Positions 13,077 through 38,423 of a DNA stretch of 46,274 nt are shown piece by piece. The position numbers and the translations under genes were made by a program. Under the pieces are notes generated by a model. The model was not told the origin of the DNA and searched no databases. It saw only the letters and a program-made list of their open reading frames with translations. How positions within the stretch are numbered: the stretch's first letter is position 1; every line of letters begins with the position of its first letter. Source of the DNA: an uncultured Myxococcales bacterium (GTDB taxonomy: Bacteria; Myxococcota_A; UBA9042); the NCBI GenBank assembly GCA_937910235.1, contig CALENB010000524.1:1-46274 (forward strand), in the 5' to 3' direction.

Positions 13077-13497
13077 CGCGGCCTCTCAGTTTTGGAGCGG
13101 CGGCGAGGATACGACGAACGTGGTGCTTGGTCACCACGACGACGCGACGACGCGGAATTTGATCACGCGCGGCGCGTCTGCCCGGTCGGGTGACCTGCGC
13201 GGCTGCGTGCGGCTAAGTGTGTACAGTTGTTAAGATTGTGAACTACGTTCACAACTCTGCCCACGATGGAACTCGGGGAGGCGCTGGCTAATCCTTCACG
13301 CGAGATGGGATCCAATTGACAAGCGCCCATGGGCCCGGCGAACGTCGGGAGAAGTACACCGCCCCCCCCGCTCAGTACCGAACCGCTGTTCACCCGCAAC
13401 CGGTGCCGTCGCACCGTGTGCATCCACCGAACTGCGCGCTGACCTGCCTAGCCCTTGCGGCATCGGGCGGACGCGCTGCAACTTTCGAGGTCCACTC
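13077..13497. promoter_or_regulatory. Divergent intergenic region upstream of the giant lipoprotein cluster
   Basis: This is the longest non-coding stretch in the window (421 bases). It separates the minus-strand aldolase-symporter operon from the plus-strand giant lipoprotein cluster. It contains an AT-richer patch with an 8-3-8 palindrome (13236-13254). A consensus -35-like TTGACA lies at 13316-13321 without an obvious -10 at 16-18 bases, and a GGAAC (13268-13272) could belong to an ECF-type promoter. There is also a 10-bp palindrome GCCCATGGGC and a run of eight C (about 13363-13370). The GAGG before ATG 13498 is the lipoprotein ribosome site. Promoter position is inference. Confidence 0.5.
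13236..13254. promoter_or_regulatory. Palindromic operator-like site
   Basis: TTGTGAAC-TAC-GTTCACAA is a perfect 8-bp inverted repeat around a three-base centre. It resembles a dimeric-regulator operator. It includes TGTGA and TCACA as in CRP sites, but spaced by seven bases rather than six. It lies 243 bases before the first giant lipoprotein gene and 160 bases from the aldolase start. Confidence 0.55.
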
Positions 13498-16400
13498 ATG
13501 ACCCACCTCGCCTCGCCCCTCGCTGGCCGCGGTTCGCCGCCCGGCGCGACCGCCGCGCTCCTGGTGCTCGCTTTGTTCTCCGTCAGCGCGTGCAGCGGTG
13601 TGGACGACCAAGGTGTGGGCGGCGACGCCTCCGGATCGCTTGTGGACGCCAACACCGGTCTGGATGCGACCGTGGTGACGGACACGGGCCCGATCGACGC
13701 GGCCGCGTGCCCGGGCGCGCTCGGCTGCGGCTGCGCCGCCGACGACGAGTGCGCGAGCGGGGTCTGCGAGGGTGGTGCGTGTGGGGTGCCATGCGCCAAG
13801 GACTGCGACGACAGCAACGCATGCACGGTAGACCTGTGCGTCGCCGCCACGTCGGTCGACGCGAGCGCCACGTGCAGCCACACCGCTGGCGCGGCCGGCG
13901 CGGCCTGTAGCGATGGCACGCTGTGTACGGCGGGTGACGCGTGCGCCTCGGGCGCCTGCGTCGGCAAGGCCGTGGACTGTGACGATGGGAGCCCCTGCAC
14001 GACCGACTGGTGTCATCCGGCCGAGGGTTGCAAGCACGACGTGAGCGACGCGGCCTGCGACGACGGTGACGTCTGCACGGTCGGCGACAGCTGCGTCAAA
14101 GGCGGCTGCGCGCCCGGAAAACCGCAGGATTGTGAGGATGGCAACCCCTGCACAGCGGACACCTGCGACAAGACCAGCGGCTGCAAGCACACGGCCACCA
14201 GCGGCAACAGCTGCGACGACGGCGACGCGTGCACGAGCGGCGACGCCTGCGCCGGGAGCAAGTGCACCGGCGGCGCCAGCGTGCAGTGCGACGATGGTAA
14301 GGCCTGCACGACAGACGTCTGCGATCCGGGTACCGGCAAGGGCGACGGCGGCTGCGTGCACACGGCGATGAACGGCGGCGCGTGTGACGATGGCAGCGTC
14401 TGCACCATCGGAGACGCCTGCAAAGCCGGCGCGTGTGTGAGCGGCAAGGCCCAGCCGTGCGACGACGGCAACCCGTGCACCATGGACGTGTGCGACCCGA
14501 AGCAGGGCTGCAGCTCGACCGCGCTGAAGGCAGGCACGTCCTGTGACGATGGCAACGCGTGCTCGACGGGCGACACCTGCGTGAGCGGCGGCTGCGTCGC
14601 TGGCAAGGCGCTGGCGTGCGACGACGGCAACGTCTGCACCAAGGACAGCTGCGACCTCGCCAAAGGCTGCGTGAACGTCGCCGCAGACGGCGGTAAGTGC
14701 GTGCCCTCGGGCAACAGCTGCACCGTGGGCGGCGTCTGCGCGGCCAGCCTGTGCAAGCCGGTCGCCCAGCTCGGCTGCGACGATGGCCAACCCTGCACCA
14801 AGGACGCCTGCGACCAGGCGAGCGGCAAGTGCGTGTTCACCCCGCTCACGGAGGGCACAGGCTGCAACGACGGCGCCGCGTGCACGATCGGCGACGCGTG
14901 CAAGTCCGGCCTGTGTGTGGGCGGAGACACGACCTGTGACGACAGCAACGTGTGCACGTCCGACAGCTGCGACGGCGTGAAGGGCTGCATCTACGCGGCC
15001 ATTGCAGACGCGGGCTGCACCGACGGCGACGTCTGCACGGTCGGCGACACCTGCGCGGCCGGCAAGTGCGCGCCGGGCGCCCTGCAGAGCTGCGACGACA
15101 ACAACCCCTGCACCGACGATGTGTGCGACGCCAAGCAAGGCTGCGCGCCGAAGAACAACGCGGCGCCCTGCGATGACAACAACGCCTGCACGACCAAGGA
15201 CGCTTGCGCCGGTGGCGCCTGCAAGGGCGGCACCGCGAAGCTCTGCGACGACGGCAACCCGTGCACCATCGACCTCTGCCACCCCGGAGTTACGGGCGCT
15301 AAGACGGGTTGTCAGTTCGTCAACGACGACAAGTCGGGCTGCAGTGATGACAACGTCTGCACAACCGGCGACGCCTGCAGCGCTGGCAAGTGCACGCCCG
15401 GCAAGGTCCAGCTCTGCGACGACCAGAACGTCTGCACGCTGGACGTATGCGACCCGAAGAAGGGCTGTATCGGCACGCCGAACACCGCGAGCTGCAGCGA
15501 CAACGACGTGTGCACCGTCGGAGATGTGTGCAAGTCGGGCAAGTGCGAGGCTGGCGCCTATCAGAACTGCGATGACCAGAACGCCTGCACCGTGGACGCT
15601 TGTGACCCAAAAACCGGCTGCACACACGACCTGACCGAGGCCAAGTGCGACGACGGCAACGCGTGCACGGTCGGCGACACCTGCATCGGCGGCAAATGCA
15701 CGCCCGGCCTGGGGCAGATCTGCGAAGACGCGAACGCGTGCACGAACGACGGCTGCGACATCGTGAAGGGCTGCGTGAACGTGGCCAACAGCGCGCCGTG
15801 CGACGACGGCAATGGCTGCTCGCTCGGCGACGTCTGCAGCAAGGGCAGCTGCATCGCGGGCGACAAGACCAAGGACTGCGACGACCTCGATGTCTGCACC
15901 CAGGACCTGTGCTACCCCGGCAGCGGGTGCAAGCACTTCGCCAACACCGCCGCGTGCGACGACGGCAACACCTGCACCACGAGCGACGCGTGCGCGGACT
16001 TCAAGTGCGCCGCGGGCCCGAAGCTGGACTGCGACGACCAGAACTTGTGCACCAATGACGCCTGCAACCCGAAGACCGGCTGCACGCACGCGCCCAACGG
16101 CAACAAGCCGTTTGGCCCGCTCGTGGACGACGCCTCCAAGAACAGCGGCTTGTGGGAGTTCAAGGCGAGCACCGGGCCCGTGCGGTTCACCCACGCCGGC
16201 ACCGGCTGGTACGCCCTCTCCGCGCCGCAGAACGCCGAGCACACCATGACGCTGCAGGCCAAGGTGGATCTAGCCTGCGCGTTCAACCCGACGCTGTACT
16301 TCGATGAGCGTTTCCAGGGCGGATCGCACTGGGTGGAGATCAGCGACGACGGCGCGAAGACGTGGTCTCCGTCGTTGATCCGTGGCGGCAAGAGCGACTA

Positions 16401-19400
16401 CATCTGGCGGACCCAAGACCTCGACCTGACGGGCTACAAGGGCAAGAAGATCTTGGTTCGCTTCCGCGTCCAGACAACCTCGACCAGCTACTGGTGGAAT
16501 ATCCGAAATATCGCGGTGCGAGAGGCCGATCCCGTGCCCAAGACGGTGAGCTGGGGCGCCGCGATCGACTGCGGCGACTTCGCTACTGAGGGCCCGGGTT
16601 GGGCCTGCAACATTGACGGCGACGGCTACCAGCTCAACTACAAGAGCTACAACTTGGTGCCGAACCCCAACCGCCACATCAACACCGCGCGATTCAACCT
16701 GCGCTTCGACGTCTCTAAGGTCGCAGAGCCCTACTTCACGTTCGAGGAGCGGGCCTACTACGGCATCCTGAAGGTGGAGACGCGGTCCCCTGGCGGCGCC
16801 TGGGCTGAGGCCTTCCTCCGCGGCTGGGCTGTGGACTACGCGTGGCGCCTGCGCGTGGTCGACCTCAGCGACTTCAAGGGCAAGGTCGTGGAGATGCGCT
16901 TCACGGTGCACAACCCCCACAACGACAGCCACTGGGGCGACGTTCGGCGGATCAAGTTTGGCGTCAAACCGAAGCCAAAGTCGGACCTCGCCTACGGCCA
17001 GCCCCTCGCGGCGTGCGCCGACTGGCAGCTCGAGGACGCAGTGTGGGAGTGCGACGCGGCCAGCACCGACTGGCTCCTGCAGGGCACGTCCGACACGGCG
17101 ACGACGAACGCGGCGAATGGGTACTGGCACTACGCGAACTACGAGCGTCAGATCGACCTCTCCAAGGCCAAGGATCCGGCGCTAAAGTTTGAACACAGCT
17201 CCTACTACGGCTCGCGCACCTTCGAGGTCAGCACCGACGGCGGCAGCTGGACCACCGTGTGGAGCGCCGGCAACACGGCCGACACCGTCTGGCGAAAGAT
17301 CGAGGTCGACCTAGGCCAATTCCTTGGCAAAAAGATCTGGGTGCGGATCGGCTACGTGCCCCACTCCACCGACCGTTGGTGGCGCCTAGCCAAGATTCGA
17401 ATCGAGGAGGCCGCCAAGCCCTGGCCTGAGGTCGCCTTCACGACGCCCGCACACGACTGCAACGCGTGGGTCGCCGAGAACGCGACTTGGCAGTGCGACC
17501 CAGCGCAGAGCAGCTATCAGTTCCGCTACGCCGTGCCCGTCGGTCTACCCACGGGATACTGGGTCGCGCTGACCAACGAGCGCGTATACAAGCTCGCCGG
17601 GCAGGCCAATCCGCACGTGCAGGTCCAGTTTCGGCACTACTACGGCTCGCTCAAGGTGCAGGCCAGCCCGGACGGCGTCCAATGGGACGACCTGTATTCG
17701 ATCGGCAACGGCGCCGACCTTGTGTGGCGTACGTTGACCTTGTCGCTCTCAGCCTACAAAAACGGGGGCACAGTCAGGCTGCGCTTCCTGGTGACGCCGC
17801 ACAGCCCGACCTATTGGGGCGAGCTCCGCAACTTCAAGCTCCTCAACGTCGTGGCACCCTCGGTGGTGAAACCAGCGGCCGCCTTCAAGTGCGCCGGTTG
17901 GGCGTTCGAGGGGGGTGCGTGGGACTGCAAGTCGACGAGCGAGGGCACGCTGCTGCGCTACGAGGGCCAGCCGACGGTCGCTAACGTCAGCCCGAACGCT
18001 TACCTCCACTATGCGGAGACGAGCCAACAGATCGACCTCGCCGGCCTCAAAAAGCCGATGCTGCGGACGACGATGCGGCACTACTACGGTGAGCTGCACA
18101 CCTATGTGAGCACGGACGGCCAGAAGTGGCATCTGCTCGACAAGCTCACCAACGTTCAGGATCGAATCTGGCGTAAGCGCACGTTCGACCTGACGACCTG
18201 GCTCGGCAAGAAGGTGTTTGTGCGCTTCGCCTCCAGGCCGAACAGCCCGACGTATTGGGGCGAGGTCAAGGACATCAGCATCGACGAGTACGTCGCGCCC
18301 GCGGTCGCCAAGCTCGGTGACGTCGTGAAGCTCGCCGACCTGGAGATGGAGGGCGGCTGGAGCTACGATTTCGTCGACAAGCGCTTCGAAGGCTCACACG
18401 AGTTCGTGAACCATTATCAATCGTTGATGTTCAAGAAGGTCTATGACCTGTCAGGCGCGACGAAGCCTGTCTTGCGCTTCGAGCATGGCTGGTACAACGG
18501 CTATGGCTACGTTGAGGTGAGCCTCGACGGCGTGACGTGGAAGAGCGTGTGGAGCGACACCTTTCACGGCAAGCGATCCTCCGTGATGCGTCCCGAGTGG
18601 ATCGACCTGTCCAGCGTGAATGGCCAGTCCGACGTGCGCATTCGCTTCCAGCACTACGCCTACAACTACGAGATCGAAACGTCGTCGTACTGGGGCATCA
18701 ACAACATCCAAGTCGTCGAGTACAAACCCACGCCGACGCGCAAGGCGCCGACCAAGCTCGGCTCGACAGACTTCGACAGTCGCGGGCTCTGGACGTACAA
18801 CGCGACGACGGCCGAGTTCTCGCTCAACAAACCGCAGTCTGCGCAGGTCGCGACGTACACGGGCAGCGACCACTTCCTGTGGCCGAATGTCGCCGTGGAT
18901 GTCTCCGCCATGAAGGAGCCGGTGCTGCGCTTTCAGCAGCGCAACTACGCGCTCACACGCTACATCGAGGTCAGTGACGATGACGGTCAGACCTGGCAGC
19001 AGGCCGACCTCGTGTCGCGGAGTTCTCAGGGTGTGTGGCAGTCGGTGCTGGTCGACTTGAGCCCGTGGAAGGCGTCCAAGGCGCTGCTTATTCGACTGCG
19101 TACCAACCTGAACAACGGCACGTACTGGTGGCAAGTCCGGTCGCTTGAGGTGCTCGAGAAACCCGCGCTCAAGTCCGTTCCTGCCGGGTTTACGGCGAAG
19201 ACGTCCGATTGGGCGCTGGAGAGCGGCTGGAATGAGAACGCGGGCCTGAATCTCCTTGAGCGCAAGGCGGACGCCCTCGCTGAGTACTCCGCGGCGGAGT
19301 CGACGTTGACGTGGGACCTATCGCAGGCGACCGCTCCCAAGATCGTCTACGACTCCACCTACTCAAACGCGACGCGGCAGATCTTCGTGAGCGTCGATGG

Positions 19401-19575
19401 TTTCGCCTGGGAGCTGGTGAGCAGCGTCGGTGGCACGCAGCAGACGATGAGCACGCAGACCGTGGATCTCGCCAAATTTGCCGGAGTCAAAGCGCTGCAG
19501 GTGCGGCTCTACTCGCACATCCAGACGATCGATTTCTACTGGCGCGTCAAGAATCTGAAGGTGGTGGCCAAATGA
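13498..19575 (+). CDS. Giant Cys-rich repeat lipoprotein 1 (class I), 2025 aa
   Basis: ATG 13498 follows CGAGG. Residues 1-32 are a lipoprotein signal peptide (hydrophobic LLVLALFSVSAC, lipobox Cys32). An Asp/Gly/Thr tether beginning SGVDDQGVGGDA follows, then a cap with CPGALGCGC (71-102). The stalk (103-864) has 14 bipartite units, each a CDDGNxCTxDxCDxxxGC half and a CDDGxxCTxGDxCxxGxC half, plus one terminal half. It resembles the Dictyostelium CTDC repeat (Pfam Dicty_CTDC, from memory). Eight jelly-roll-like domains follow, starting near 865, 1018, 1165, 1313, 1459, 1606, 1754 and 1895, each ending like DLSxYKGKKxxVRF...YWWxIRNI, reminiscent of MAM or choice-of-anchor-J folds. There is no C-terminal sorting signal. 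It probably stands on the outer surface as a disulfide-rich rod with a binding head; function unknown. Confidence 0.9.
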   Translation: MTHLASPLAGRGSPPGATAALLVLALFSVSACSGVDDQGVGGDASGSLVDANTGLDATVVTDTGPIDAAACPGALGCGCAADDECASGVCEGGACGVPCAKDCDDSNACTVDLCVAATSVDASATCSHTAGAAGAACSDGTLCTAGDACASGACVGKAVDCDDGSPCTTDWCHPAEGCKHDVSDAACDDGDVCTVGDSCVKGGCAPGKPQDCEDGNPCTADTCDKTSGCKHTATSGNSCDDGDACTSGDACAGSKCTGGASVQCDDGKACTTDVCDPGTGKGDGGCVHTAMNGGACDDGSVCTIGDACKAGACVSGKAQPCDDGNPCTMDVCDPKQGCSSTALKAGTSCDDGNACSTGDTCVSGGCVAGKALACDDGNVCTKDSCDLAKGCVNVAADGGKCVPSGNSCTVGGVCAASLCKPVAQLGCDDGQPCTKDACDQASGKCVFTPLTEGTGCNDGAACTIGDACKSGLCVGGDTTCDDSNVCTSDSCDGVKGCIYAAIADAGCTDGDVCTVGDTCAAGKCAPGALQSCDDNNPCTDDVCDAKQGCAPKNNAAPCDDNNACTTKDACAGGACKGGTAKLCDDGNPCTIDLCHPGVTGAKTGCQFVNDDKSGCSDDNVCTTGDACSAGKCTPGKVQLCDDQNVCTLDVCDPKKGCIGTPNTASCSDNDVCTVGDVCKSGKCEAGAYQNCDDQNACTVDACDPKTGCTHDLTEAKCDDGNACTVGDTCIGGKCTPGLGQICEDANACTNDGCDIVKGCVNVANSAPCDDGNGCSLGDVCSKGSCIAGDKTKDCDDLDVCTQDLCYPGSGCKHFANTAACDDGNTCTTSDACADFKCAAGPKLDCDDQNLCTNDACNPKTGCTHAPNGNKPFGPLVDDASKNSGLWEFKASTGPVRFTHAGTGWYALSAPQNAEHTMTLQAKVDLACAFNPTLYFDERFQGGSHWVEISDDGAKTWSPSLIRGGKSDYIWRTQDLDLTGYKGKKILVRFRVQTTSTSYWWNIRNIAVREADPVPKTVSWGAAIDCGDFATEGPGWACNIDGDGYQLNYKSYNLVPNPNRHINTARFNLRFDVSKVAEPYFTFEERAYYGILKVETRSPGGAWAEAFLRGWAVDYAWRLRVVDLSDFKGKVVEMRFTVHNPHNDSHWGDVRRIKFGVKPKPKSDLAYGQPLAACADWQLEDAVWECDAASTDWLLQGTSDTATTNAANGYWHYANYERQIDLSKAKDPALKFEHSSYYGSRTFEVSTDGGSWTTVWSAGNTADTVWRKIEVDLGQFLGKKIWVRIGYVPHSTDRWWRLAKIRIEEAAKPWPEVAFTTPAHDCNAWVAENATWQCDPAQSSYQFRYAVPVGLPTGYWVALTNERVYKLAGQANPHVQVQFRHYYGSLKVQASPDGVQWDDLYSIGNGADLVWRTLTLSLSAYKNGGTVRLRFLVTPHSPTYWGELRNFKLLNVVAPSVVKPAAAFKCAGWAFEGGAWDCKSTSEGTLLRYEGQPTVANVSPNAYLHYAETSQQIDLAGLKKPMLRTTMRHYYGELHTYVSTDGQKWHLLDKLTNVQDRIWRKRTFDLTTWLGKKVFVRFASRPNSPTYWGEVKDISIDEYVAPAVAKLGDVVKLADLEMEGGWSYDFVDKRFEGSHEFVNHYQSLMFKKVYDLSGATKPVLRFEHGWYNGYGYVEVSLDGVTWKSVWSDTFHGKRSSVMRPEWIDLSSVNGQSDVRIRFQHYAYNYEIETSSYWGINNIQVVEYKPTPTRKAPTKLGSTDFDSRGLWTYNATTAEFSLNKPQSAQVATYTGSDHFLWPNVAVDVSAMKEPVLRFQQRNYALTRYIEVSDDDGQTWQQADLVSRSSQGVWQSVLVDLSPWKASKALLIRLRTNLNNGTYWWQVRSLEVLEKPALKSVPAGFTAKTSDWALESGWNENAGLNLLERKADALAEYSAAESTLTWDLSQATAPKIVYDSTYSNATRQIFVSVDGFAWELVSSVGGTQQTMSTQTVDLAKFAGVKALQVRLYSHIQTIDFYWRVKNLKVVAK
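13804..16089 (+). repeat. Cys-rich stalk repeats of lipoprotein 1: 14 units plus a half
   Basis: Degenerate direct repeats of about 150 bp (about 52 aa on average) encoding two four-Cys halves per unit. Unit 6 is atypical: its second half reads CVPSGNSCTVGGVC instead of CDDGxxCTxGDxC. Unit 7 has one extra residue before its fourth Cys (SGKC). Unit 13 has one extra residue in its trailing linker (AGDKTKD). These irregularities recur at the same positions in the three paralogues. Confidence 0.9.
16090..19572 (+). repeat. Eight jelly-roll-like domain repeats of lipoprotein 1
   Basis: Eight domains of about 145 aa that are similar to one another at protein level only. Domains 2-5 each begin with a Cys pair spaced C-x11-C (for example DCGDFATEGPGWAC); domains 6-8 have none. 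Conserved core positions are PxLxFExRxYYG, VSxDGxxW, a WR pair, DLSxYxGKK and YWxxxRN. Confidence 0.8.
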
Positions 19576-22500
19576 ACGGGACGACATCGATGATGAGGAT
19601 GAAGATGAACCAGCGCCTCGTTAGAACACCACCGCTACGCGCCTGCTGGGCGTCTTCCGCGCTGATGGTGGGCCTGTTGGTCGGCCTGCTTGGCTGCGGG
19701 GATGATCTGCCGACCGAGAACACCGAGGACGCCGCCATCGGTGTGGCCGACGGCATCGAAGATGGCAACGTCTTCCCGGATGGCATCGGACCGGGCGGGG
19801 AGGCTTGCCCAGACGGGATCGGCTGCCCTTGTGTGGCCAACGACGACTGCACGAGCGGGCTGTGTTGGGATGCCAGCAAGGGCGTCGAAGCCACCAAGGA
19901 CAACGCCGGCGCCTGCGCGAAACCCTGCGAGACCAACGGCAAGCCGGGTTGTGACGACGGCAGCCCGTGCACCGTCGACAGCTGCACGCCATCGGTCCAC
20001 AAAGACACCGACGCGCAGTGCGGCCACGCGCCGCTGAAGAACGGCACTGGATGCGACGACGGCAACGCCTGCTCGAGCGCCGACCGCTGCGTGGCGGGGG
20101 CATGCACGGGCGACCTGGTCGTCTGCAACGACAACAACCCCTGCACCTCGGATAGCTGCAAGGGAGGCAGCGGCGCCGGTTGTGTGTACGCCAACAACGA
20201 CGGCGCGCCCTGCGACGATGGCAGCGTGTGCACGACCAACGATGCGTGCGGTGGCGGCGCGTGCGTCAGCGGCAAACCGACCGCCTGCGATGATCAGAAC
20301 CCGTGCACGGAAGACGCGTGCGACGGCAAGCTTGGCTGCACCTACAAGGCGACCACGGCGGGCTGTACCGACGGCAACGCGTGCACGGCTGGCGACGCCT
20401 GCAAGGGCGGGGTCTGCGTGCCGGGTCAAGGCGTGCTCTGCGACGACGGCAATCCGTGCACCACCGACGCCTGCCTGCCGGCCGCGGGCTGCACCGTGAC
20501 CAACGATGACGGCGCGACGTGCAGCGACGGGGACGTCTGCACGAAGGGCGACACCTGCGCCGGCGGCACCTGCGCGCCCGCGAAGCAGCAGTCGTGCGAT
20601 GACGGCAACCCCTGCACCATCGACAGCTGCGACAAGGTGAAGGGCTGTCAGCAGACCAAGCTCGACGGCGACGCGTGCGATGACGGCACCGTGTGTACGG
20701 TGGGCGACACGTGTAAGGCGGGCGCCTGCACCCCGGGCGGCGCGCTCGCGTGCAACGACGGCAACCCCTGCACAACGGACGCCTGCGACCCACTCATAGG
20801 CTGCAAAACCAAGCCAGCAGACGGCAAAGTGTGCGTGCCTGCGGGCAACAGCTGCGATGTCGGTGGTGTCTGTGCTGCTGGGGTCTGCAAGACGGTGAAG
20901 CAGTCCGGGTGCAATGACGGCAACCCGTGCACGACCGACACGTGCGATGCCAAGACCGGGGCGTGTAGCTACGAGCCGGTGACGGACGGCGACGCCTGCA
21001 ATGACGGCGACGCCTGCATCGTCAGCGAGACCTGCCAGAAGGGCGCGTGCCTTGGAGCGCCTGCCGATTGCGACGACAACAATGGCTGCACGACGGACGC
21101 TTGCGACGCGGAGACGGGCTGTTCGCATGCTGTCGGCCTCGCCAAGGACGCCACCAAGGGCTGCGACGACGGCAACCTCTGCACGGTGGGCGACGCCTGC
21201 AAATCCGGCGTCTGCCAGCCGGGTCAGCCCCAGAACTGCGGCGACGGCAACCCCTGCACCGACGCGGCCTGCGACCCAGCGAGTGGCTGCAAGCCCGGCG
21301 CAAAGGGTTCGAGCTGCGACGACGGCAACGCCTGTACGACCGGCGACAGCTGCGTGGCCGGCAACTGCGTGCCCGGCAAGCCGCAGAGCTGCGATGACGG
21401 CAACGCCTGCACGCTCGACAGCTGCGACCCCAAGAGCGGCTGCAAAGCCAAGATCGCGGGCCTCTCCTGCTCTGACGGCAACGTCTGCACGGTCGGTGAC
21501 GGTTGCCAGGGCGGCCTCTGTGTCGCAGGCAAGCTGCAGGTCTGCAGCGATGGCAACACCTGCACCAACGACACGTGCGACGCCATCAAGGGCTGCGTCG
21601 CGCTGAACAACACGGCGAGCTGTGACGACGGCGACGTCTGCACCAGCAACGACATCTGCCAGGGCGGCGTCTGCAACTCTGGCGTCGCGCTCTCGTGCGA
21701 CGACAAGAACGGCTGCACGGACGACTTCTGCGAGAAGAAGACGGGCTGTGTGCACTCGCCGACAAACAGCGCGTGTGACGACGGCAACAAGTGCACCGTT
21801 GGCGATGGCTGCAAGACCGGCAAGTGCTTCCCGGGGACCAAGCAGGTCTGCGACGACAAGAATCACTGCACGACGGACAGCTGCCATCCGACCAAGGGCT
21901 GCGTTCAGACCGCCAACACCCTCGGCTGCGACGACGGCAACATCTGCACCGTGGCGGACACGTGCGGCGGCGGGGCCTGCAATCCGGGCTCAAAGCAGCT
22001 GGCGTGCAACGACGGCATCTTCTGCACCGATGACTTCTGCGATCCGAAGACCGGCTGCAACTCGGTGAAGACCGACCGGCTCTGCAACGACGGCGACGCC
22101 TGCACCATCAAAGATGCGTGCAAGCTGGGCGTGTGCGTCGCTGGCGCCGCGAAGAACTGCGACGACCTCAACAAGTGCACGGACGATTTCTGCGACGCGA
22201 CCAAGGGCTGCATCCACGTCGCCAATGGGCCCAACGCGTTCAAGCCCTTCTACGACGCAGCCCAGTACAACAAGGACTACTGGGCGTTCGGCGGCACGAC
22301 GACCATCAAGGCCTTCGGCCACGCTGGGGCGGGCTTTTACCGCATGATCACGGGCGACGCCGGCAGTACGCAGACCATGACGCTGCAAGAGAAGGTGGAT
22401 CTGAAGTGCACGGGCGCGCCGTACCTCTACTGGACGGAGCGCTACGCCGGCGGTCAGCTCTTCGTCGAGGCCAGCAAGGACGGGCTGATCTGGGTTCCGA

Positions 22501-25700: not shown

Positions 25701-25798
25701 GCGGGCGTCAGGCGGCGATGCCGACGACACATCGCGATGAGATCTCGCTGCTCGCGGGCAGCGCACAGTCGATGAACGGATTCGAGGCGGAGGAAGAG

Positions 25799-31700: not shown

Positions 31701-32041
31701 TCAACGCGGCCGGGTACCTGGAGCGCAAGGTCGACGCCATCAACAAGTACACCTACGCGACGCTGCTGGTCTCGTTCGATCTGAAGACCGTGCCGAAACC
31801 GGTGCTCCACTTCGAAGAGACGGGGCTCAACGTCTCGCGCTACGTCGAGGTCAGCGATGACAACATCATCTGGCAGACGTTCACCGTGCCAGGCGCCGCT
31901 CCTGGCGCGACCTGGACGGCGAAGAGCATCGATCTCCCGTCATTTGGTGGGAGCCCGACCGTCTACGTGCGGATCCGCGGCCATATCGCCGTGAAGGATC
32001 GCTACTGGCGCGTGCGAAAGCTCACGATCAGCAAGAAGTAG
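25799..32041 (+). CDS. Giant Cys-rich repeat lipoprotein 3 (class I), 2080 aa
   Basis: The frame is open from a GTG at 25697 that overlaps the lipoprotein 2 stop (GTGA), but the best start is ATG 25799, with GGAGG five bases upstream (25789-25793). It places the signal peptide core GLMLAGLLAFAAPGC (Cys43) close to the N-terminus; ATG 25802 is equivalent. After the lipobox comes GGTDDEGVVGDA, matching lipoprotein 1. The cap has CTGAVGCPC. The stalk (145-917) has 14 units plus a half, with the atypical unit at number 6. Unit 3 contains an insertion (CTGDTATADTC) shared with lipoprotein 4. Eight C-terminal domains occupy about 918-2080; domain 7 (YTGYHQLWPKVRLDLSGL) closely follows that of lipoprotein 1. 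The lipobox -3 position is Ala rather than Leu, so lipidation is less certain than in the others. Confidence 0.9.
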   Translation: MMSQTMADKTRPAAARWATRCATRQATAGLMLAGLLAFAAPGCGGTDDEGVVGDALSLDVSGLDSSVGADGTQGDAVVGDGLNADGKGTDASGNADAAADAAPADAGPCTGAVGCPCATKDDCDSALCVGIGDAAVCGLDCKGGCDDTNPCTVDLCQPATATGVEPACAHAAAADGGTCDDSNPCTGDGACTAGSCAAGAVKDCADTNPCTTDYCDKSGTCQHDGVSGKPCDDGDVCSVGDACASGACAAGKAQLCDDSNPCTADTCDAKKGCVSTDDDGKSCDDGDACTGDTATADTCKAGSCVAGGAKSCDDDDPCTLDGCASDKGCTHGLQAGAPCSDGDVCTVGDVCGAKGCDAGKAQPCDDGNPCTDNSCDKVNGCVSLPNTVTCTDGNACTTGDACEAAACSPGKLTSCDDNNPCTTDACDPGDGKSSGGCVNSAADGGACVPQDDSCAVTGICAAKACKKVAVTGCDDGNPCTTDACDKATGTCVYNAGKLGVTCDDGNVCTEKDACATGGCKGAARGCSDGNACTTDACDPSVTGGCVNAAGAGLSCNDGDLCTANDACKNGACAAGGKLACDDGNPCTDDSCDAKKGCVNAANSKPCDDNNGCTAGDVCGQGASGVAVCKPGAAKTCDDGKHCTKDICDPKASGGAGGCVSTPDDGLGCDDGDVCTEGDVCKSSTCTSGPAQLCNDDNVCTKDACDPKKGCVTTAIPGPCNDGDICSVGDTCNAGKCAPGKLTVCDDNNACTSDSCHYQKGCVYAALTGACNDGDACTSGDACQGGKCAGAKPTVCDDGNICTDDSCDKLKGCLIKPNTKVCDDNNVCSLGDACSGGTCKAGLKTKVCTDGKVCTADECDKVKGCQFPANSAECSDGNACTKNDQCDTFKCISGPKLSCDDHNLCTDDSCNTTTGCIHAKNSHPAFKAIVDNTTNDSGLWALSASNNKVKWTFSGSYWRMLGSLYAAQRMTLKPVLDLSCAVAPTLYFEERYYGAPLSVEVSLDNNVWTVVHNGTSGSDYVWRPREVDLSGYIGKKVYLRFATAPSNSTYWSNLRLIEMREKKPAPKLVTWGAAMSCGDFVMEGPLFQCVKDGAGYQLQTKGAAMTPEAYKYANIARFNVRFDRTKVKLPRLVLEERHRYSSLSVRIRQAGELKWQTVWQRPGGGIIDPIWRQHRIDLGNVPGDVWEVAIATNYGNTDFWMDLRNIAFTTTPADLTPHKAPYKWTKCDGLDLEGDALTCDPTSKVYDYRWETGSTGDKGTYSYWHRINVLRRVDLTALTNPIVRYYQRYYRGDARIEASLDGIQWTSHTYQNYGASDYVWREVIGDLSQYKGKVIWLRMAINPRYSSSVWGEIKGLEVADTPKAWPVVKWGPQTFTCSQWAFEGTGWTCDGTTGLKQVGNSDQPSPNAYYQAATYQRTFDLTGVSNAVVRFEQLSRYGELQLDVRKKGGGWLTVWSRGNALDPIFRHVEVDLSAYSSQQIELRFNGRPLYPETQPQSLEIRNVTLGTKATLPTITFGAAMTCNLWRKEGDAFTCDPNLAKWTWRVNIPKNDGTQSYYHHAELMAWVDLTKAVDPQIYFDYADYGSTYFYMQVITEGGKWLSLNTVYNLPDSQFLTEMRYDLSPYVGKKVRFRMLGRPASSSYWTELHNISLRERDKITSLKPGAAVTTKDFRAEGSWAYDTKDATWKSGTAYFSAYQTLRLKSAFDLSGASKPELRFLSRSKHTYQLVDVSTDGVQWSNVWLLQTSGQHVPDFEPIIIDLSPWAGQKQIFVRFQAHPYGSVADLSHWWVKNVTIAEHVSLPVVKAPVTLTTAHLNMTGEWKQDATTGAFTLNYPASAAIDATYTGYHQLWPKVRLDLSGLSTPELTFTTRRYNALPYVDISVDQGITWQTLQVVGVEDDVVWREQSVDLGAYKGNKSVMIRVRARPGNKAYWWQVKDLRVDNRFVYPSVKADTISALTAWKLEQPGWSVNAAGYLERKVDAINKYTYATLLVSFDLKTVPKPVLHFEETGLNVSRYVEVSDDNIIWQTFTVPGAAPGATWTAKSIDLPSFGGSPTVYVRIRGHIAVKDRYWRVRKLTISKK
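26231..28549 (+). repeat. Cys-rich stalk repeats of lipoprotein 3: 14 units plus a half
   Basis: 14 bipartite units and a terminal half. Unit 6 carries the variant CVPQDDSCAVTGIC, unit 7 the extra residue (TGTC) and unit 13 the longer trailing linker (GLKTKV). Units 9 and 10 have private insertions (GQGASGVAVC; PKASGGAGGC). Confidence 0.9.
28550..32038 (+). repeat. Eight jelly-roll-like domain repeats of lipoprotein 3
   Basis: Eight domains of about 145 aa. Domains 2-5 have the Cys pair (SCGDFVMEGPLFQC, KCDGLDLEGDALTC, TCSQWAFEGTGWTC, TCNLWRKEGDAFTC); domains 6-8 do not. Domain 1 reads DLSCAVAPTLYF, the class I form. Confidence 0.8.
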
Positions 32042-32129
32042 ACGAACTCGTTCGAGCGCCAACGCGGCGCACAACCACGCGGAGCCCTCCCGGCTCCAGC
32101 GGCCCCCACCCGGGGCTTTGAGGCCGACC

Positions 32130-35100
32130 ATGAACACGACCTCCCTGAATCTACGCTGGCCGCACGGCCTGCTCGTTCTGGGTCTGATTACCGCGACCAG
32201 CGTTGGGTGCGGCGACAATTTGCCGCGCTTTGACGAGGCGACGGCTGACGCTGCGCCCGACGTCGCGGACGCTGCGGACACGACCGACATCGGTGAAGGC
32301 TGCCCAGGGGCGCTCGGCTGCGCCTGCGCGGCCGATGACACCTGCGACAGCGGCTACTGCCATCCTGCGTCGGGCGACAAGCAGGAGGCGCAGTGCGCGA
32401 CGCCGTGCGAGACGGCCGGCGACAAGGGCTGCAATGACGGCAACCCGTGCACCACCGACCTCTGCGACGCCAGCACCGATTCAGATAAGTCCTCGACATG
32501 TTCCCACACGGCTGTGGCCAACGGTGTGGTGTGCAACGACGGCGACGCCTGCACGACGTCGGATGTGTGCGGCGCTGGCGCCTGCGCGGGCGCGGCTAAG
32601 GATTGCGGCGACGGTGATCCTTGCACCACGGACACATGCGAGAAGGCCACCGGCTGCTCGCACGGCGATGACGACGGCAAGGCGTGTGACGATGGCGACG
32701 CCTGCACCGGTGGCAAGGCCGGCGACGCGTGCAAAGGCGGCAAGTGCGCCGGCGGCGCCGCGGTCGATTGTGATGACGCCAACCCGTGTACGACCGACAG
32801 CTGCGACAAGACGACGGGCTGCGGCCACACGGCGCTGGACGGCGGCGGCTGTGACGACGGCAGCGCCTGCACAGGCACCAAGGCCAAGGCCGACACGTGC
32901 GTGAAGGGCGTCTGCGAGCCCGGCGCGCCGGTCGTGTGTGACGACGCCAACCCCTGCACTACCGACGCGTGCGACGCCGCGGCCGGCTGCACGGTCACGG
33001 ACGCGGACAGCACACCCTGTGACGACGGCAACGCCTGCACGTTGGGTGACACCTGCAAATCGGGCGGATGCATCGGCGGAAAGCCGCTCAGCTGCGACGA
33101 CGGCAACCCCTGCACCACGGACGCCTGCGACCCAGACGGCAAGACCTCCGGTAATCAGGGTTGCGTCAACACGGCGCTCGACGGCACCCCGTGCGACGAT
33201 GGGTCGGCCTGTACGGGCGCAAAGGACGCTGCCGGCGATGACGCGGACCACTGCGTGAAGGGCGCCTGTACGCCGGGCGCGCCGAAGAGCTGTGATGACG
33301 CCAACCCGTGTACGACCGACGCGTGCGAGCCGGCCGCCGGCTGCACCATCACCAATGACGATGGCGCGAAGTGTGTGCCAGGCACCGGCAACAAGTGCGA
33401 CACCGGCGGCCTCTGTGCTGGCGGCGCGTGCAAGGTTGTGCAGCAGGTGGGCTGCGATGACGGCAACCCCTGCACGGCGGACAGCTGCGACCAAACCACT
33501 GGGCTGTGTGTGTACAAGTCCGCGTCGGACGGTGCGCAGTGCAGTGACGGCAACCCGTGCACCGACCAAGACGCCTGCAAATCCGGGGTATGCGCGGCGA
33601 AGCCGAAGGTCTGCGACGACGATAACGTCTGCACCGCCGACGCCTGCGATCCCGCGCCGGCGACGGGCCCTGGCGGCTGCACGACCAAGCCGCTCGACGG
33701 TAAGTCGTGCAGCGACGGGACCGTGTGCACCAGCGGAGACGTCTGCGCGGCGGGCACGTGCAAAGGCGGCAAGGCGCTCTCTTGCGACGACAACAACCCC
33801 TGCACCATCGACCTCTGCGACAAGGCCAAGGGCTGCGCGTCGACGCAGAAGACGGGCGATTGCGACGACGGCAACGCTTGCACCGACAAGGACACCTGCA
33901 AGGCTGGCTGGTGTAACCCAGGTGGCCTCAAGGTCTGCGATGACGCGAACGCCTGCACCACGGACAGCTGTGACCCGAAGCAGGGCTGCAAGAACGACGC
34001 GGTCGCGGCGAGCTGCAACGATGGCAACCTCTGCACCGTGGCCGATACGTGCGACAAGGGCAGCTGCAAGTCCGGCACGACGCAGACCTGTGACGACAAC
34101 AACGACTGCACGGCCGACACCTGCGACCCGAAGATCGGCTGCCAGAGCGTGACGACAAAAGCCCCCTGTAGTGACGGCGACGTCTGCACGGTCGGCGACG
34201 CCTGTAAGGGCGATCTCTGTGTCCCCGGCGCTGGCGTCAAGGACTGCGACGACAAGAACGCCTGCACCGTCGATGTGTGCGACCCGACCAAGGGCTGCGT
34301 CGTGACCGACAGCCTGAACGCGTGCACCGACGGCGACGCGTGCACCGTTGGCGACTCGTGCAAAAGCGGCAAGTGCGTGGCCGGCGCCAGCCAGCTGTGC
34401 AACGACGGCAACCCCTGCAGCGACGACAGCTGCGACGCGAAGAAGGGGTGCATCCAGGTCCCGAACAGCAAGGCCTGCGACGACGGCAACGCCTGCACGC
34501 TCGGCGATGCGTGCAAGGCGGGCTACTGCCAGGGCGGCGGCCAGACCAAGACGTGCGACGACAAGAATCCATGCACAGACGACTTCTGCGACCCCGCCAA
34601 AGGCTGCAGCCAGGTGTTGACGACGAAGCTGTGCAACGACGGCGACGCCTGCACGGTCGACGACGCCTGTGTGTCGGGCAAGTGCAAAGGTGGCAGCCCG
34701 AAGGACTGCAGCGACGACAACACCTGCACCGACGATGTGTGCGACCAGACGACGGGCTGCAAACACACGAACAACACCAAGAACCCGTTCACGCCCATCA
34801 ACGACAGCGGCGCCGAAGACTCCGGCAAGTGGGCCTTCTCAGCGACGAAGGGCGCCGGGGCGTTCACCCACGTTGGCGCTGGCTACTACCGGCTCGCGGC
34901 GGGCGTGGTTGGCGAGACGTACGCGATGACGCTCAAAGCGCCCATCGACTTGGCGTGCACCGGTAAGCCGACCCTGTATATCGTGGACCGCTACGCCGTC
35001 GGCACCGCCGTCGTGGAGACGAGCCTCGACGGCAAGGCGTGGAAGACCCTCGCGACACACACTGGTTCAGACTACGTGTGGCGTCGACGGTACTGGGATC

Positions 35101-38100
35101 TGGGCGCGTTTGTGGGCAAAAAGCTGTATTTGCGGCTCTTGAGCAAGGTCACGTCGGCCGACCAGTGGTGGGACATCCGGGGCATCGAGATCAAGGAGAA
35201 GGAGCCGCTGCCGAAGAAGGTCGCGTGGGGAACGACGTTCGGCTGCAGCGATCTGCGCTACGTCGGTCCAGCGTTCAACTGCGACGCCTCCGAGTCTCCC
35301 TATCAGGTGCGTTACCACGGCGTGGTCCAGGAGCCTGACACCAACCTCCACCCCAACACGGCGGTGCCGAAGATGCTCTTCGACACGAAGGGCGTGACCG
35401 ATCCGGCGGTGAGCTTCGAGGAGCGCAGCTACGCCGGTGGTTTGTGGGTCGACGTGCGCGAGCCTGAGGGCGCGTGGAAGCAGGTCTACGCCCGCGGCGC
35501 CGTCAGCGACTATGTGTGGCGCCCGCGGACCATCTACCTCACCGCCTACAAGGGCAAAGTGCTGGAGTTCCGATTCCGAGCGACGATGGGCACGACGGCT
35601 TGGACGCACATCCGCAGCGTCAAGATGTTTGACGAGGCGCCGCCGACGCTGCCCGCCATCGTCAAGGCGCCGCTGGCGCTGAAGGCCTGCGCAGATTGGC
35701 AGATGGATGGCACGGCGTGGCTGTGTGACAACGCGCAGACGATCTTCAAGCTGGCCTACGTCGGCGACCCGTCGGTGGACTACAACACCAACGGCTACGC
35801 CCACGCCGTTCAGTACGACAAGCGGATCGATCTGAGCGCGATGACCTCGCCGGAGCTGACGTTTGAGCATCGCTACTACTACGGGACGATGTACGTCTAC
35901 CTCTCGACGAACGGCACGAGCTGGACGACGGTGTACTCACACGGCAACGGCTCGGACTACCTGTGGCGGCAACAACGCCTGGATCTGTCGTCCTGGCAGG
36001 CGAAGAAGACGCCGATCTACGTCCGCATCCTCGTCTATCCGTACACGGCCACGGGCTGGGGACACCTGCGCAACATCAAGATCGAGGAGCAGCCCAAAGC
36101 GCTGGACACGGTGGCCTATGGCACCAAGCTCAACAGCTGCGGTTGGTGGAGTTGGGAGGGGCCGAGCTGGAAGTGTGACCCGACGGAGACGAAGTGGTTG
36201 TTCCGCGTCGATGGCGTGGACACCGTCCCGGATCCAGGCGGCTACTGGCAGTACAACACGCTACAGCGCTGGATCGACGTGCCCAACAAGGGCCAGCCGA
36301 GCTTTCAGATCGAGTACCGCCGCAACTACAGCTACATTCAGCTCCAGGTCAGCACCAACGGCACCAGCTGGAGCAACCTCATGGGCAACACGGGCTCAGC
36401 GGCTGACTTTGTATGGCGGCCACTTCGCGCGGACTTGTCCTCCTACAAGGGCAAGAAGATCATGCTCCGCATCGGCGCAATCCCAAGCATCTATGGCCGC
36501 TGGATCGAGCTGCGCAAGCCGGCGTTCCAGGAGTTCAACACGTGGCCAACGGTGAAGTTCGGCGGCATGCCGGTCTGCCAGGACTGGCTGTTCGAGGGCA
36601 CCGCGTGGACGTGTGGCTCAGGCTCCGACGGCTATCAGCTTCGCTACGTGGGGTCTACCGAGCAGCCCTCGCCTGACTACAGCTACCACTACGCGACGCG
36701 CGCGGCGCTGATCGACCTCAAGGATACGAAAAATCCGACGATGTACTTTGAGGCCAGCCGCACGCTGGGCTACCTCAGGATCTTCGTGTGGGGACCGGAA
36801 GACTCGTACCAACAGCTCTTTGACACGAGCAACACGTCGCTGCCCTTCTACCGACGTTATGCGGTGGATCTGACCAAGTTTGCTGGCCGCAAGATCTACG
36901 TCCGCCTCGGCGCGCTGCCCTACGGTGCGACGGCATCCGGCAAGATCCGCAACCTGATCTTCAAGGAGCGCGAGGCGGTGAAGGTGGTCAAGTACACCCA
37001 CGCCATCCAGCCTGACGATTGGTGGATGGAAGGCGGCTGGCACTACGACACGAGCGCGGCCCGGTACGAGCAAGACGGTACGGTCATCAACGTCTACCAC
37101 GACATGTACACCAAGATGAAGATCGACCTGACCGGCCTCACTGCGCCGCAGCTCAGCTTCAAGCAGACCAATAACAACGTGACCCGCTACGTCTATGTGA
37201 GCGAGGACGGCGCAACCTGGCAGAACGCCCAGTACATCGGCGCTGGCTACGACCCGGTCGAGCGTGTCGCCACCGTTGACCTGACAAAGTGGAAGGACAA
37301 GGCCATCTACCTGAGTTTCCGGGGCCACGTCGGCACGACTGACCGCTGGTGGCGTCTCCGAGACTTCGAGTTTCACGAGCCCGTGGTCGTCAACACCGTC
37401 CCCGCCGGCACCACCCTCGCGACCGATCAGTTTACCATCGAGGGCCTTTGGAAGTGGCTGACGCTCGAGAAGGCCTACGGGATGAACTACGGCGTCGGCG
37501 GTTCGACGCAGGACAAGTTGCTCCTGAACACGTACCAGTCGCTGACCGCCACCGCCGCTTGGGATATCACCAAGTTGAAGGCGCCGACGCTCATCTTCGA
37601 CGAGCGCGCTACGGGCAGCTACTCGTACCATCGCCTCGAGTTCAGCTTGGACGGCGCGGATTGGAAACACCTGGGGTATGGCAGCCAGCAGGCCACCGGC
37701 ACGGCGTTCCGGCGCGCGACGTTCGACCTGTCAACGTCAGGCGCCAAGAGCACGATTCGTGTGCGCTTCCGCGGCTACCCGTCCACCAGTGAGTATCACT
37801 GGACCGTCAAGAACGTGCGCCTCGCCGAGCCGCCCATGGTCACCGTCTTGCAGCCCGGCACGACGCTCAAATCCACGGACGTGCAGTACTACGGCGGCTG
37901 GACGTATGGCTCAGGTTACTTCGAGAAAGTGCTCAAGAGCACCAACGAGTACAACTTCCTGGAGATGCGCGACACGGCGTACAACCTGAGCGGCACCTCC
38001 AAGCCGGTCGTCGTGTTCGAAGAGGGCTACCTGCAGTGCAACGTCTATGTGTACTGCAGCCACGACGGCGGCGCCTCCTGGATCTACGTCAACGGGCTGT

Positions 38101-38255
38101 CGCAAAACGGCCAATATCTCGGCTTCAAGCAGCGCACGGTGTCGCTGGCGAGCTGCGCCAACAAGCCACAGGTGCAGCTGAGATTTCACGTGACGCAGCG
38201 CTACTCACCCGGCGAGTACTGGCGCATTCGCAACATCGTCGTCCTCAAGCAGTAG
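32130..38255 (+). CDS. Giant Cys-rich repeat lipoprotein 4 (class II), 2041 aa
   Basis: ATG 32130 follows TTGAGG at a suitable distance; an in-frame TTG at 32118 is less likely. The short signal peptide has core LLVLGLITATSVGC (Cys27), then CGDNLP as in lipoprotein 2, and an Asp/Ala tether. The cap has CPGALGCAC and PCETAGDKG. The stalk (101-879) has 14 bipartite units and a half. Unit 6 is the conserved atypical one, and units 2, 3 and 5 carry insertions after CTG. Eight C-terminal domains fill 880-2041. Domain 6 (RYVYVSEDGATWQNA) and domain 7 (NYGVGGS, WDITKLKAPTLIFDER) match lipoprotein 2. Uniquely, domain 8 contains three Cys residues. It lies 88 bases after lipoprotein 3 and 168 bases before the nSTAND gene; function unknown. 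Confidence 0.9.
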   Translation: MNTTSLNLRWPHGLLVLGLITATSVGCGDNLPRFDEATADAAPDVADAADTTDIGEGCPGALGCACAADDTCDSGYCHPASGDKQEAQCATPCETAGDKGCNDGNPCTTDLCDASTDSDKSSTCSHTAVANGVVCNDGDACTTSDVCGAGACAGAAKDCGDGDPCTTDTCEKATGCSHGDDDGKACDDGDACTGGKAGDACKGGKCAGGAAVDCDDANPCTTDSCDKTTGCGHTALDGGGCDDGSACTGTKAKADTCVKGVCEPGAPVVCDDANPCTTDACDAAAGCTVTDADSTPCDDGNACTLGDTCKSGGCIGGKPLSCDDGNPCTTDACDPDGKTSGNQGCVNTALDGTPCDDGSACTGAKDAAGDDADHCVKGACTPGAPKSCDDANPCTTDACEPAAGCTITNDDGAKCVPGTGNKCDTGGLCAGGACKVVQQVGCDDGNPCTADSCDQTTGLCVYKSASDGAQCSDGNPCTDQDACKSGVCAAKPKVCDDDNVCTADACDPAPATGPGGCTTKPLDGKSCSDGTVCTSGDVCAAGTCKGGKALSCDDNNPCTIDLCDKAKGCASTQKTGDCDDGNACTDKDTCKAGWCNPGGLKVCDDANACTTDSCDPKQGCKNDAVAASCNDGNLCTVADTCDKGSCKSGTTQTCDDNNDCTADTCDPKIGCQSVTTKAPCSDGDVCTVGDACKGDLCVPGAGVKDCDDKNACTVDVCDPTKGCVVTDSLNACTDGDACTVGDSCKSGKCVAGASQLCNDGNPCSDDSCDAKKGCIQVPNSKACDDGNACTLGDACKAGYCQGGGQTKTCDDKNPCTDDFCDPAKGCSQVLTTKLCNDGDACTVDDACVSGKCKGGSPKDCSDDNTCTDDVCDQTTGCKHTNNTKNPFTPINDSGAEDSGKWAFSATKGAGAFTHVGAGYYRLAAGVVGETYAMTLKAPIDLACTGKPTLYIVDRYAVGTAVVETSLDGKAWKTLATHTGSDYVWRRRYWDLGAFVGKKLYLRLLSKVTSADQWWDIRGIEIKEKEPLPKKVAWGTTFGCSDLRYVGPAFNCDASESPYQVRYHGVVQEPDTNLHPNTAVPKMLFDTKGVTDPAVSFEERSYAGGLWVDVREPEGAWKQVYARGAVSDYVWRPRTIYLTAYKGKVLEFRFRATMGTTAWTHIRSVKMFDEAPPTLPAIVKAPLALKACADWQMDGTAWLCDNAQTIFKLAYVGDPSVDYNTNGYAHAVQYDKRIDLSAMTSPELTFEHRYYYGTMYVYLSTNGTSWTTVYSHGNGSDYLWRQQRLDLSSWQAKKTPIYVRILVYPYTATGWGHLRNIKIEEQPKALDTVAYGTKLNSCGWWSWEGPSWKCDPTETKWLFRVDGVDTVPDPGGYWQYNTLQRWIDVPNKGQPSFQIEYRRNYSYIQLQVSTNGTSWSNLMGNTGSAADFVWRPLRADLSSYKGKKIMLRIGAIPSIYGRWIELRKPAFQEFNTWPTVKFGGMPVCQDWLFEGTAWTCGSGSDGYQLRYVGSTEQPSPDYSYHYATRAALIDLKDTKNPTMYFEASRTLGYLRIFVWGPEDSYQQLFDTSNTSLPFYRRYAVDLTKFAGRKIYVRLGALPYGATASGKIRNLIFKEREAVKVVKYTHAIQPDDWWMEGGWHYDTSAARYEQDGTVINVYHDMYTKMKIDLTGLTAPQLSFKQTNNNVTRYVYVSEDGATWQNAQYIGAGYDPVERVATVDLTKWKDKAIYLSFRGHVGTTDRWWRLRDFEFHEPVVVNTVPAGTTLATDQFTIEGLWKWLTLEKAYGMNYGVGGSTQDKLLLNTYQSLTATAAWDITKLKAPTLIFDERATGSYSYHRLEFSLDGADWKHLGYGSQQATGTAFRRATFDLSTSGAKSTIRVRFRGYPSTSEYHWTVKNVRLAEPPMVTVLQPGTTLKSTDVQYYGGWTYGSGYFEKVLKSTNEYNFLEMRDTAYNLSGTSKPVVVFEEGYLQCNVYVYCSHDGGASWIYVNGLSQNGQYLGFKQRTVSLASCANKPQVQLRFHVTQRYSPGEYWRIRNIVVLKQ
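32430..34766 (+). repeat. Cys-rich stalk repeats of lipoprotein 4: 14 units plus a half
   Basis: 14 bipartite units and a terminal half. Unit 6 variant CVPGTGNKCDTGGLC, unit 7 extra residue (TGLC) and unit 13 longer trailing linker (GGQTKT) match the other three. Unit 3 shares the CTGxxxxADTC insertion with unit 3 of lipoprotein 3. Confidence 0.9.
34767..38252 (+). repeat. Eight jelly-roll-like domain repeats of lipoprotein 4
   Basis: Eight domains of about 145 aa. The Cys pair is present in domains 2-5 (GCSDLRYVGPAFNC, ACADWQMDGTAWLC, SCGWWSWEGPSWKC, VCQDWLFEGTAWTC) and absent from 6 and 7. Domain 8 instead has QCNVYVYC and SCANK, three Cys at 38037-38156. Confidence 0.8.
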
Positions 38256-38350: not shown

Positions 38351-38423
38351 GTGGCACTTTCGGGCGGGGGCCTAGCGGCGGGTGTACGAGCGCGCGCGGG
38401 TCCTCATCAGCCTTGAGGTGCAC

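Follow-up and report, generated by a model that had tools for sequence, protein, structure and literature searches.

Four consecutive genes of an uncultured Myxococcales bacterium encode giant predicted lipoproteins with a CTDC-repeat stalk and an eight-domain head

Four giant genes that share a single protein architecture lie side by side in a 46,274-nucleotide stretch of DNA from an uncultured Myxococcales bacterium (GenBank assembly GCA_937910235.1, contig CALENB010000524.1; hereafter the window), which is one contig of a 7.1-Mb assembly in 593 contigs. These genes, here named A to D, are consecutive plus-strand open reading frames (ORFs) spanning 13498–38255, with products of 2025, 2042, 2080 and 2041 amino acids. 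We think it reasonably probable that the cluster was inherited as one set of surface lipoproteins that are probably regulated together, each with a lipid anchor, a rigid disulfide stalk and an eight-domain binding head. The four proteins align over their full length with 37–43% identity and 133 invariant cysteine columns, confirming the four adjacent giant genes that a first-pass annotation had described with these positions and sizes. The family occurs in two of the 52 genomes of the class that were examined, namely the window’s genome and one other of the same genus, the public metagenome-assembled genome Myxococcales bacterium GY13CH_bin.24 (G001). No end-to-end match to the family was found in a wider sample of the phylum.

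Each protein displays its modules in the same order: a lipobox cysteine, a tether, a cap, a stalk and a head of eight domains. A hydrophobic signal and a lipobox-type cysteine followed by Ser or Gly, called by pattern and by eye rather than with a signal-peptide program, are found in all four genes and in those sister-species genes in which the start is present. The tether comprises 30–65 residues and is rich in aspartate. Lipobox and tether together suggest that the proteins are lipidated and exposed at the cell surface. The mature N-terminus has a C-G-D-x-(L/F)-like start, often followed by Pro, in B, in D and in CTDC-repeat giants from elsewhere in the class (L086, L088 and L093); this start might be a sorting signal comparable to the lipoprotein export signals of Bacteroidota. 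The cap contains exactly seven cysteines in each protein, and the stalk consists of 14 eight-cysteine units plus a four-cysteine half unit, making 116 cysteines in every gene. Even irregular cysteine spacings, such as a mid-stalk CVPxxxxxC unit, are positioned alike in all four proteins. Gene A (13498–19575, lipid Cys codon 13591–13593) encodes its cap at 13708–13803, its stalk at 13804–16095 and its head at 16096–19572. The corresponding segments lie at 19806–19949, 19950–22223 and 22224–25697 in gene B (19572–25700, lipid Cys codon 19695–19697), at 26123–26230, 26231–28555 and 28556–32038 in gene C (25799–32041, lipid Cys codon 25925–25927), and at 32301–32429, 32430–34772 and 34773–38252 in gene D (32130–38255, lipid Cys codon 32208–32210). 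The lipoprotein signal, Asp-rich tether and Cys-rich cap proposed in the first-pass annotation are thus present in all four proteins, and its plan of 23 modules (14 units, one half unit and eight head domains) can be counted in every gene.

Head domains 1 to 8 contain 1, 2, 2, 2, 2, 0, 0 and 0 cysteines, respectively, the exception being D domain 8 with three, and a C-x11-C pair is confined to domains 2–5. The three extra cysteines of D domain 8 (37419–38252) are missing from domain 8 of A, B and C, while some occur in the C and D copies of the sister species. In each protein checked, the number of cysteines is odd both in the cap and in head domain 1. If every cysteine is paired within its own chain, the disulfide ladder would continue beyond the stalk at both ends, and we infer an uninterrupted ladder running from the cap through the stalk to the first head domain.

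The stalk is a tandem array of the motif CDDGNxCTxDxC, whose likeness to the Dictyostelium CTDC repeat is borne out by strong matches to the Dicty_CTDC profile (PF00526). Proteins A and C, the two that were scanned, score 190.5 and 167.9 bits (E values of 2.8e-57 and 3.3e-50) over 14–15 stretches, far above the curated cut-off of 27 bits. An AlphaFold2 model of three stalk units (D units 9–11, 33783–34244) has a mean predicted local distance difference test (pLDDT) score of 95.0, a predicted template modelling (pTM) score of 0.64 and regular short strand pairs in each unit; a pTM of this size would not be surprising for a chain that is long and thin. Searches for a solved structural relative of the stalk gave no sequence match and no convincing fold match. 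The best fold match, weak at an E value of 6e-3 and not used, is an adhesin from an amoebozoan, the Gal/GalNAc lectin of Entamoeba (heavy subunit). The disulfides themselves and the extended shape of the stalk are predicted features, and our guess for its length is a few tens of nanometers.

The eight repeated head segments of the first-pass annotation are likewise supported, since they form one domain family by alignment and the two domains that were modeled share a common predicted fold type. The AlphaFold2 model of these two domains (D domains 3–4, 35685–36542) has a mean pLDDT of 96.3 and a pTM of 0.88. Foldseek matches it, with E values of 1e-8 to 1e-5, to proteins that contain jelly-roll binding modules, including Vip3, Cry proteins, reelin repeats, surface glycan-binding protein B, a CBM22 tandem and the MAM-containing PTPRK. 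EngBF and GH101 enzymes also appear among the fold matches. Template modelling scores (TM-scores) of the two-domain model against known structures are low, about 0.2–0.43, which holds the fold assignment at superfamily level. At that level, the profile matches agree with the jelly-roll fold. Reelin_subrepeat-B (PF21471) provides the one accepted curated head match: D domain 8 scores 39.6 bits against a cut-off of 27 and is the sole head domain found above it, the other scanned domain pairs scoring 17–23 bits. The reelin repeats themselves (PDB 7lyu, 2ddu and 6a48), which are among the best fold matches, are tandem jelly-roll modules like the A–D heads; the latter, however, have no EGF module between domains, no alternating A/B subrepeats and mostly domains below the profile cut-off.

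The earlier comparison of the heads with MAM and choice-of-anchor-J domains stands as regards the type of fold but not as regards family membership. Choice-of-anchor J (NF038128) and InhA-like MAM (PF20773) have the same beta-sandwich type and match many head domains weakly, yet the former reaches at best 28.3 bits for a whole protein and 26 bits for the listed domain pair (cut-off 30), and the latter 20.8 bits (cut-off 26.9). The F5/8 type C profile also matches the heads below its cut-off. The classical MAM profile was not listed in the profile scan, and the likeness to MAM consists only of fold matches to MAM-containing chains. Sequence matches of the heads in the PDB are weak and scattered (a flagellin hook motif, tubulin chaperone C) and were not used.

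In the mechanism that we favor, in which the head is held off the outer membrane as the first-pass annotation proposed, each of A–D would be lipid-anchored through its N-terminus, and the rigid disulfide ladder of 14.5 CTDC units would keep the C-terminal string of eight domains far from the outer membrane. Eight jelly-roll domains on one chain could provide many weak binding sites and hence avidity, while four diverged heads on a near-constant stalk could confer four different binding ranges. The most likely ligands would be glycans or glycoproteins, whether from other cells, prey, particles or matrix, and the role would be adhesive. Among possible functions, we rank adhesion to or capture of external glycoconjugates as the most likely and glycan feeding next, with kin recognition and a pure matrix role lower. 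For feeding, the proteins would act as long-reach antennae, catching polysaccharide or prey material and keeping it for uptake in the manner of the surface glycan-binding proteins of Bacteroides. The fold matches to surface glycan-binding protein B, the CBM22 tandem, EngBF and GH101 enzymes speak for such a role, but no glycoside hydrolase, TonB-type transporter or SusC/D-like gene was recognized in the window, and we view it as possible though on the doubtful side. The cluster offers a clean test case of how bacteria that prey or live socially may hold binding domains out at a distance from their membrane, because four heads on a stalk of fixed unit number can be expressed and tested in separate parts.

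A search for the same cluster in related genomes, as the first-pass annotation had suggested, found it together and in order in the sister species, one genome being compared per species. G001 contains all four genes in the same A-B-C-D order as one-to-one orthologues, with gene D broken by a contig end. Its two D fragments were considered as separate genes, which we rejected because each sits at the end of a contig and the outer flanks of these two contigs adjoin on one contig of the window’s genome. The orthologues are 60–70% identical in the heads and 73–81% in the stalks, compared with 82–83% for leuS and the aldolase. The genomic sites differ. In the window, the cluster lies between the aldolase gene and an nSTAND1–leuS pair, which in G001 stand together without the cluster and with a gap of 2.4 kb. 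In G001, the cluster lies between a methyltransferase-like/rhomboid-like side and amtB–glnB; the methyltransferase-like and amtB–glnB homologues of the window’s genome are together without the cluster, and the rhomboid-like gene is absent there as well. Since the order is the same at different loci and each genome shows the other’s site empty, the set appears, from these two genomes, to behave as one block.

A candidate operator upstream of gene A may belong to the same block. The perfect dyad TTGTGAAC-TAC-GTTCACAA occupies 13236–13254, 262 bp before gene A, and as TTGTGAACTACGTTCACAA it is the only perfect match in the 7.1-Mb genome, with 0 expected in the window. In G001 (contig C147), the sequence ATGTGAATGTCGTTCACGA lies 261 bp before its gene A, and the core conserved in both species is GTGAA-N5-TTCAC. 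The DNA upstream of gene A is unalignable between the two species except for this dyad and the last ~20 bases. The core arises in 5 of 20,000 shuffles of the G001 upstream region, a figure that serves only as a guide given that the core was picked after being seen. We propose the dyad as a candidate regulatory site kept with the cluster. A sigma-70 promoter scan upstream of gene A gave no match. The shared order, the one-to-one orthologues, the reciprocally empty sites and a dyad kept at a like distance amount to unit behavior, and we count them in favor of one inherited set.

Rates of substitution distinguish stalk from head. Between orthologues, the ratio of nonsynonymous to synonymous substitutions (dN/dS) is 0.12–0.14 for stalks and 0.20–0.30 for whole heads, values that are approximate because dS (about 0.9–1.6) is near saturation. 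The fastest-evolving parts are several of head domains 5–8. These ratios indicate that all four genes are kept functional under purifying selection and that the outer part tolerates more change than the stalk does. The lower stalk and higher head ratios reflect part-specific constraint, which we count in favor of a display device.

A recognition domain presented on a cysteine-rich stalk is already known from TraA of Myxococcus, in which the Cys-rich repeat region was proposed to be a rigid presentation stalk and its likeness to the Dictyostelium Pfam00526 family was noted; the TraA repeats have been modeled as disulfide-stiffened hairpins (PMC3325183, PMC12045341). Like A–D, TraA places its recognition domain on a long, Cys-rich and predicted disulfide-stiffened stalk at the surface of a member of the Myxococcota (PMC3325183, PMC12045341, PMC13184517), and the cluster is a variant of this display plan. 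TraA carries a single variable PA14-like domain at its N-terminus and a MYXO-CTERM anchor at its C-terminus, its repeats are of the TIGR04201 type and its partner is TraB, whereas A–D have an N-terminal anchor, CTDC repeats, eight C-terminal jelly rolls and four tandem paralogues. No C-terminal MYXO-CTERM anchor is present in A–D, all of which stop within the final strand region of domain 8 of the head.

The parallel raises the alternative that A–D are receptors for kin or self, each head binding its own counterpart on a sister cell, with a recognition code made up by the four paralogues. Besides the general plan, the divergence of heads beyond that of stalks fits such receptors, both between species and between paralogues (28–36% identity in heads, 49–54% in stalks). 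All the genes are nonetheless under purifying selection without a hypervariable domain, no TraB-like (OmpA-domain) gene was recognized among the window neighbors scanned, and an NCBIfam scan of A–D listed no TIGR04201 repeat at E ≤ 1. The set is also absent from two of the four genus genomes examined, one of which is only 67% complete. We therefore regard kin recognition as unlikely. The constraint on the heads also weighs against our preferred reading of diverged binding heads at the surface, as they lack the hypervariability expected of an allele-recognition receptor. The same holds for the low TM-scores of the head model, for a periplasmic location of A–D, which is a possible alternative to surface exposure, and for the surroundings of the cluster, beside which no matrix or adhesion partner gene was recognized.

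The string of modules is older than the four genes. Across paralogues, a head domain is most like the one at the matching position (25–40% identity on the diagonal versus 18–31% off it), and different head domains are no more alike within one protein than between proteins, which implies that the module string predates gene multiplication. The whole-protein tree gives the sister pairs (A,C) and (B,D) with full support. Together with the A-B-C-D order, this suggests as the simplest history that one gene was doubled and the pair then doubled. All 32 orthologous head-domain pairs are recovered between the two species. In a tree of all 64 domains, exact clades form only for positions 1, 2 and (weakly) 7, and the deeper order of the domains is not resolved. 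Independent build-up of the four genes and concerted repeat evolution were both considered and rejected on the position-matched likeness and the 32 recovered pairs.

The stalk repeat is not specific to this locus. Dicty_CTDC scores above its cut-off in all 36 class genomes examined, most with at least 120–150 repeats and one with 12, and other genomes of the phylum sample mostly have 0–39 (one has 88). An even sample of the window’s genome (40 contig stretches, L030–L069, 422 kb) contains 11 ORFs with at least two strict CTDC motifs; these account for 10.5% of bases, a slightly generous figure as ORF lengths were taken from stop to stop. Shuffled ORFs of this sample gave none with two motifs. 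Extrapolation from this small sample leads to an estimate of roughly 185 CTDC ORFs per genome. Other CTDC giants of the class (L086, L088 and L090–L093) resemble A–D in their CTDC arrays and, where seen, in a lipoprotein-type N-terminus. Their arrays, judged by eye, often occur with choice-of-anchor-J-like, RCC1-like or NHL-like propeller domains; the binding domains either lie scattered among the repeat blocks or belong to other types, and no giant in this group matches the eight-domain head over its full length. The cluster is thus a four-gene set restricted, among the genomes examined, to one genus and placed inside a class-wide CTDC expansion. The first-pass remark that 25 kb devoted to one architecture is unusual holds for the strict four-gene set but not for CTDC giants, which are routine in the class. 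No report of the expansion was found in the open-access literature, and on bacterial CTDC repeats nothing beyond the TraA-related remark was found there.

Dictyostelid genomes encode 6–15 CTDC proteins each (PMC4931340), while class genomes mostly give hundreds of candidate CTDC repeats each. The Dictyostelium proteins of the same repeat family (EcmA/B, PsiA and PsiF) are eukaryotic matrix or signal proteins, some of which pair the repeat with a PA14 binding domain, whereas A–D are predicted lipoproteins with eight reelin/CBM-like domains. A repeat named for slime molds is extremely abundant in the large secreted-type proteins of an entire bacterial class, a finding relevant to the question of whether this matrix module in amoebae and bacteria reflects shared origin or convergence. 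By analogy, A–D could be structural matrix proteins, with the stalk as the working part of a disulfide-rich extracellular coat. This would accord with the matrix role of the Dictyostelium proteins (PMC4931340) and with the abundance of CTDC proteins in the class; against it stand the lipid anchor signal and eight-domain head of each protein, and an exact conserved unit number where matrix fibers typically vary in repeat number. Such a role seems to us improbable. A bolder and rather speculative view is that the class built its whole cell surface on the CTDC repeat and that the cluster is a transferable surface organelle, an operator and four receptors with interchangeable stalks moving as a cassette, as a bacterial counterpart of the matrix and recognition proteins of amoebae.

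The four genes are probably co-regulated and may be co-transcribed. Likely start codons are at 13498 for A, ATG 19572 for B, ATG 25799 for C (preceded by GGAGG, in an ORF that opens with GTG at 25697) and ATG 32130 for D. The start of B overlaps the stop of A by 4 bases, and gaps of ~100 bp and ~90 bp separate B from C and C from D. The neighbors in the window are leuS, a DmpG-type aldolase, a symporter, aminopeptidase N and an nSTAND1 NTPase. We considered and rejected a mobile element, as the window contains no tRNA, neither a transposase nor an integrase was recognized among the neighbors, and the cluster edges have no convincing repeats. The nSTAND1 NTPase ORF (38382–40925) lies on the same plus strand and opens shortly after the end of D at 38255, which would suit a functional system with the four genes, for example in sensing and defense. 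This link, including one to phage defense, is largely refuted by synteny, as three sister species have an nSTAND1 gene at this very position, where they lack the four genes. PADLOC gave no match for A and D and only marginal ones for the NTPase. We rejected the link and regard it as extremely improbable.

The aldolase-to-leuS interval (window 13077–44000; L082–L085) is a variable site in the genus. It holds four giants in the window’s genome, almost nothing in G001 and G002, and other large genes in G003. In the latter, the gap between the aldolase and nSTAND1 has a 13-kb filling that differs from the cluster, and a different Cys-rich giant lies beside leuS; the ORFs of this interval include one of 2664 amino acids with 50 cysteines and a CTDC ORF of 2112 amino acids with 129 cysteines. 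All four species have the nSTAND1 NTPase here, though it is poorly conserved, with 31–53% identity versus 76–84% for leuS and the aldolase.

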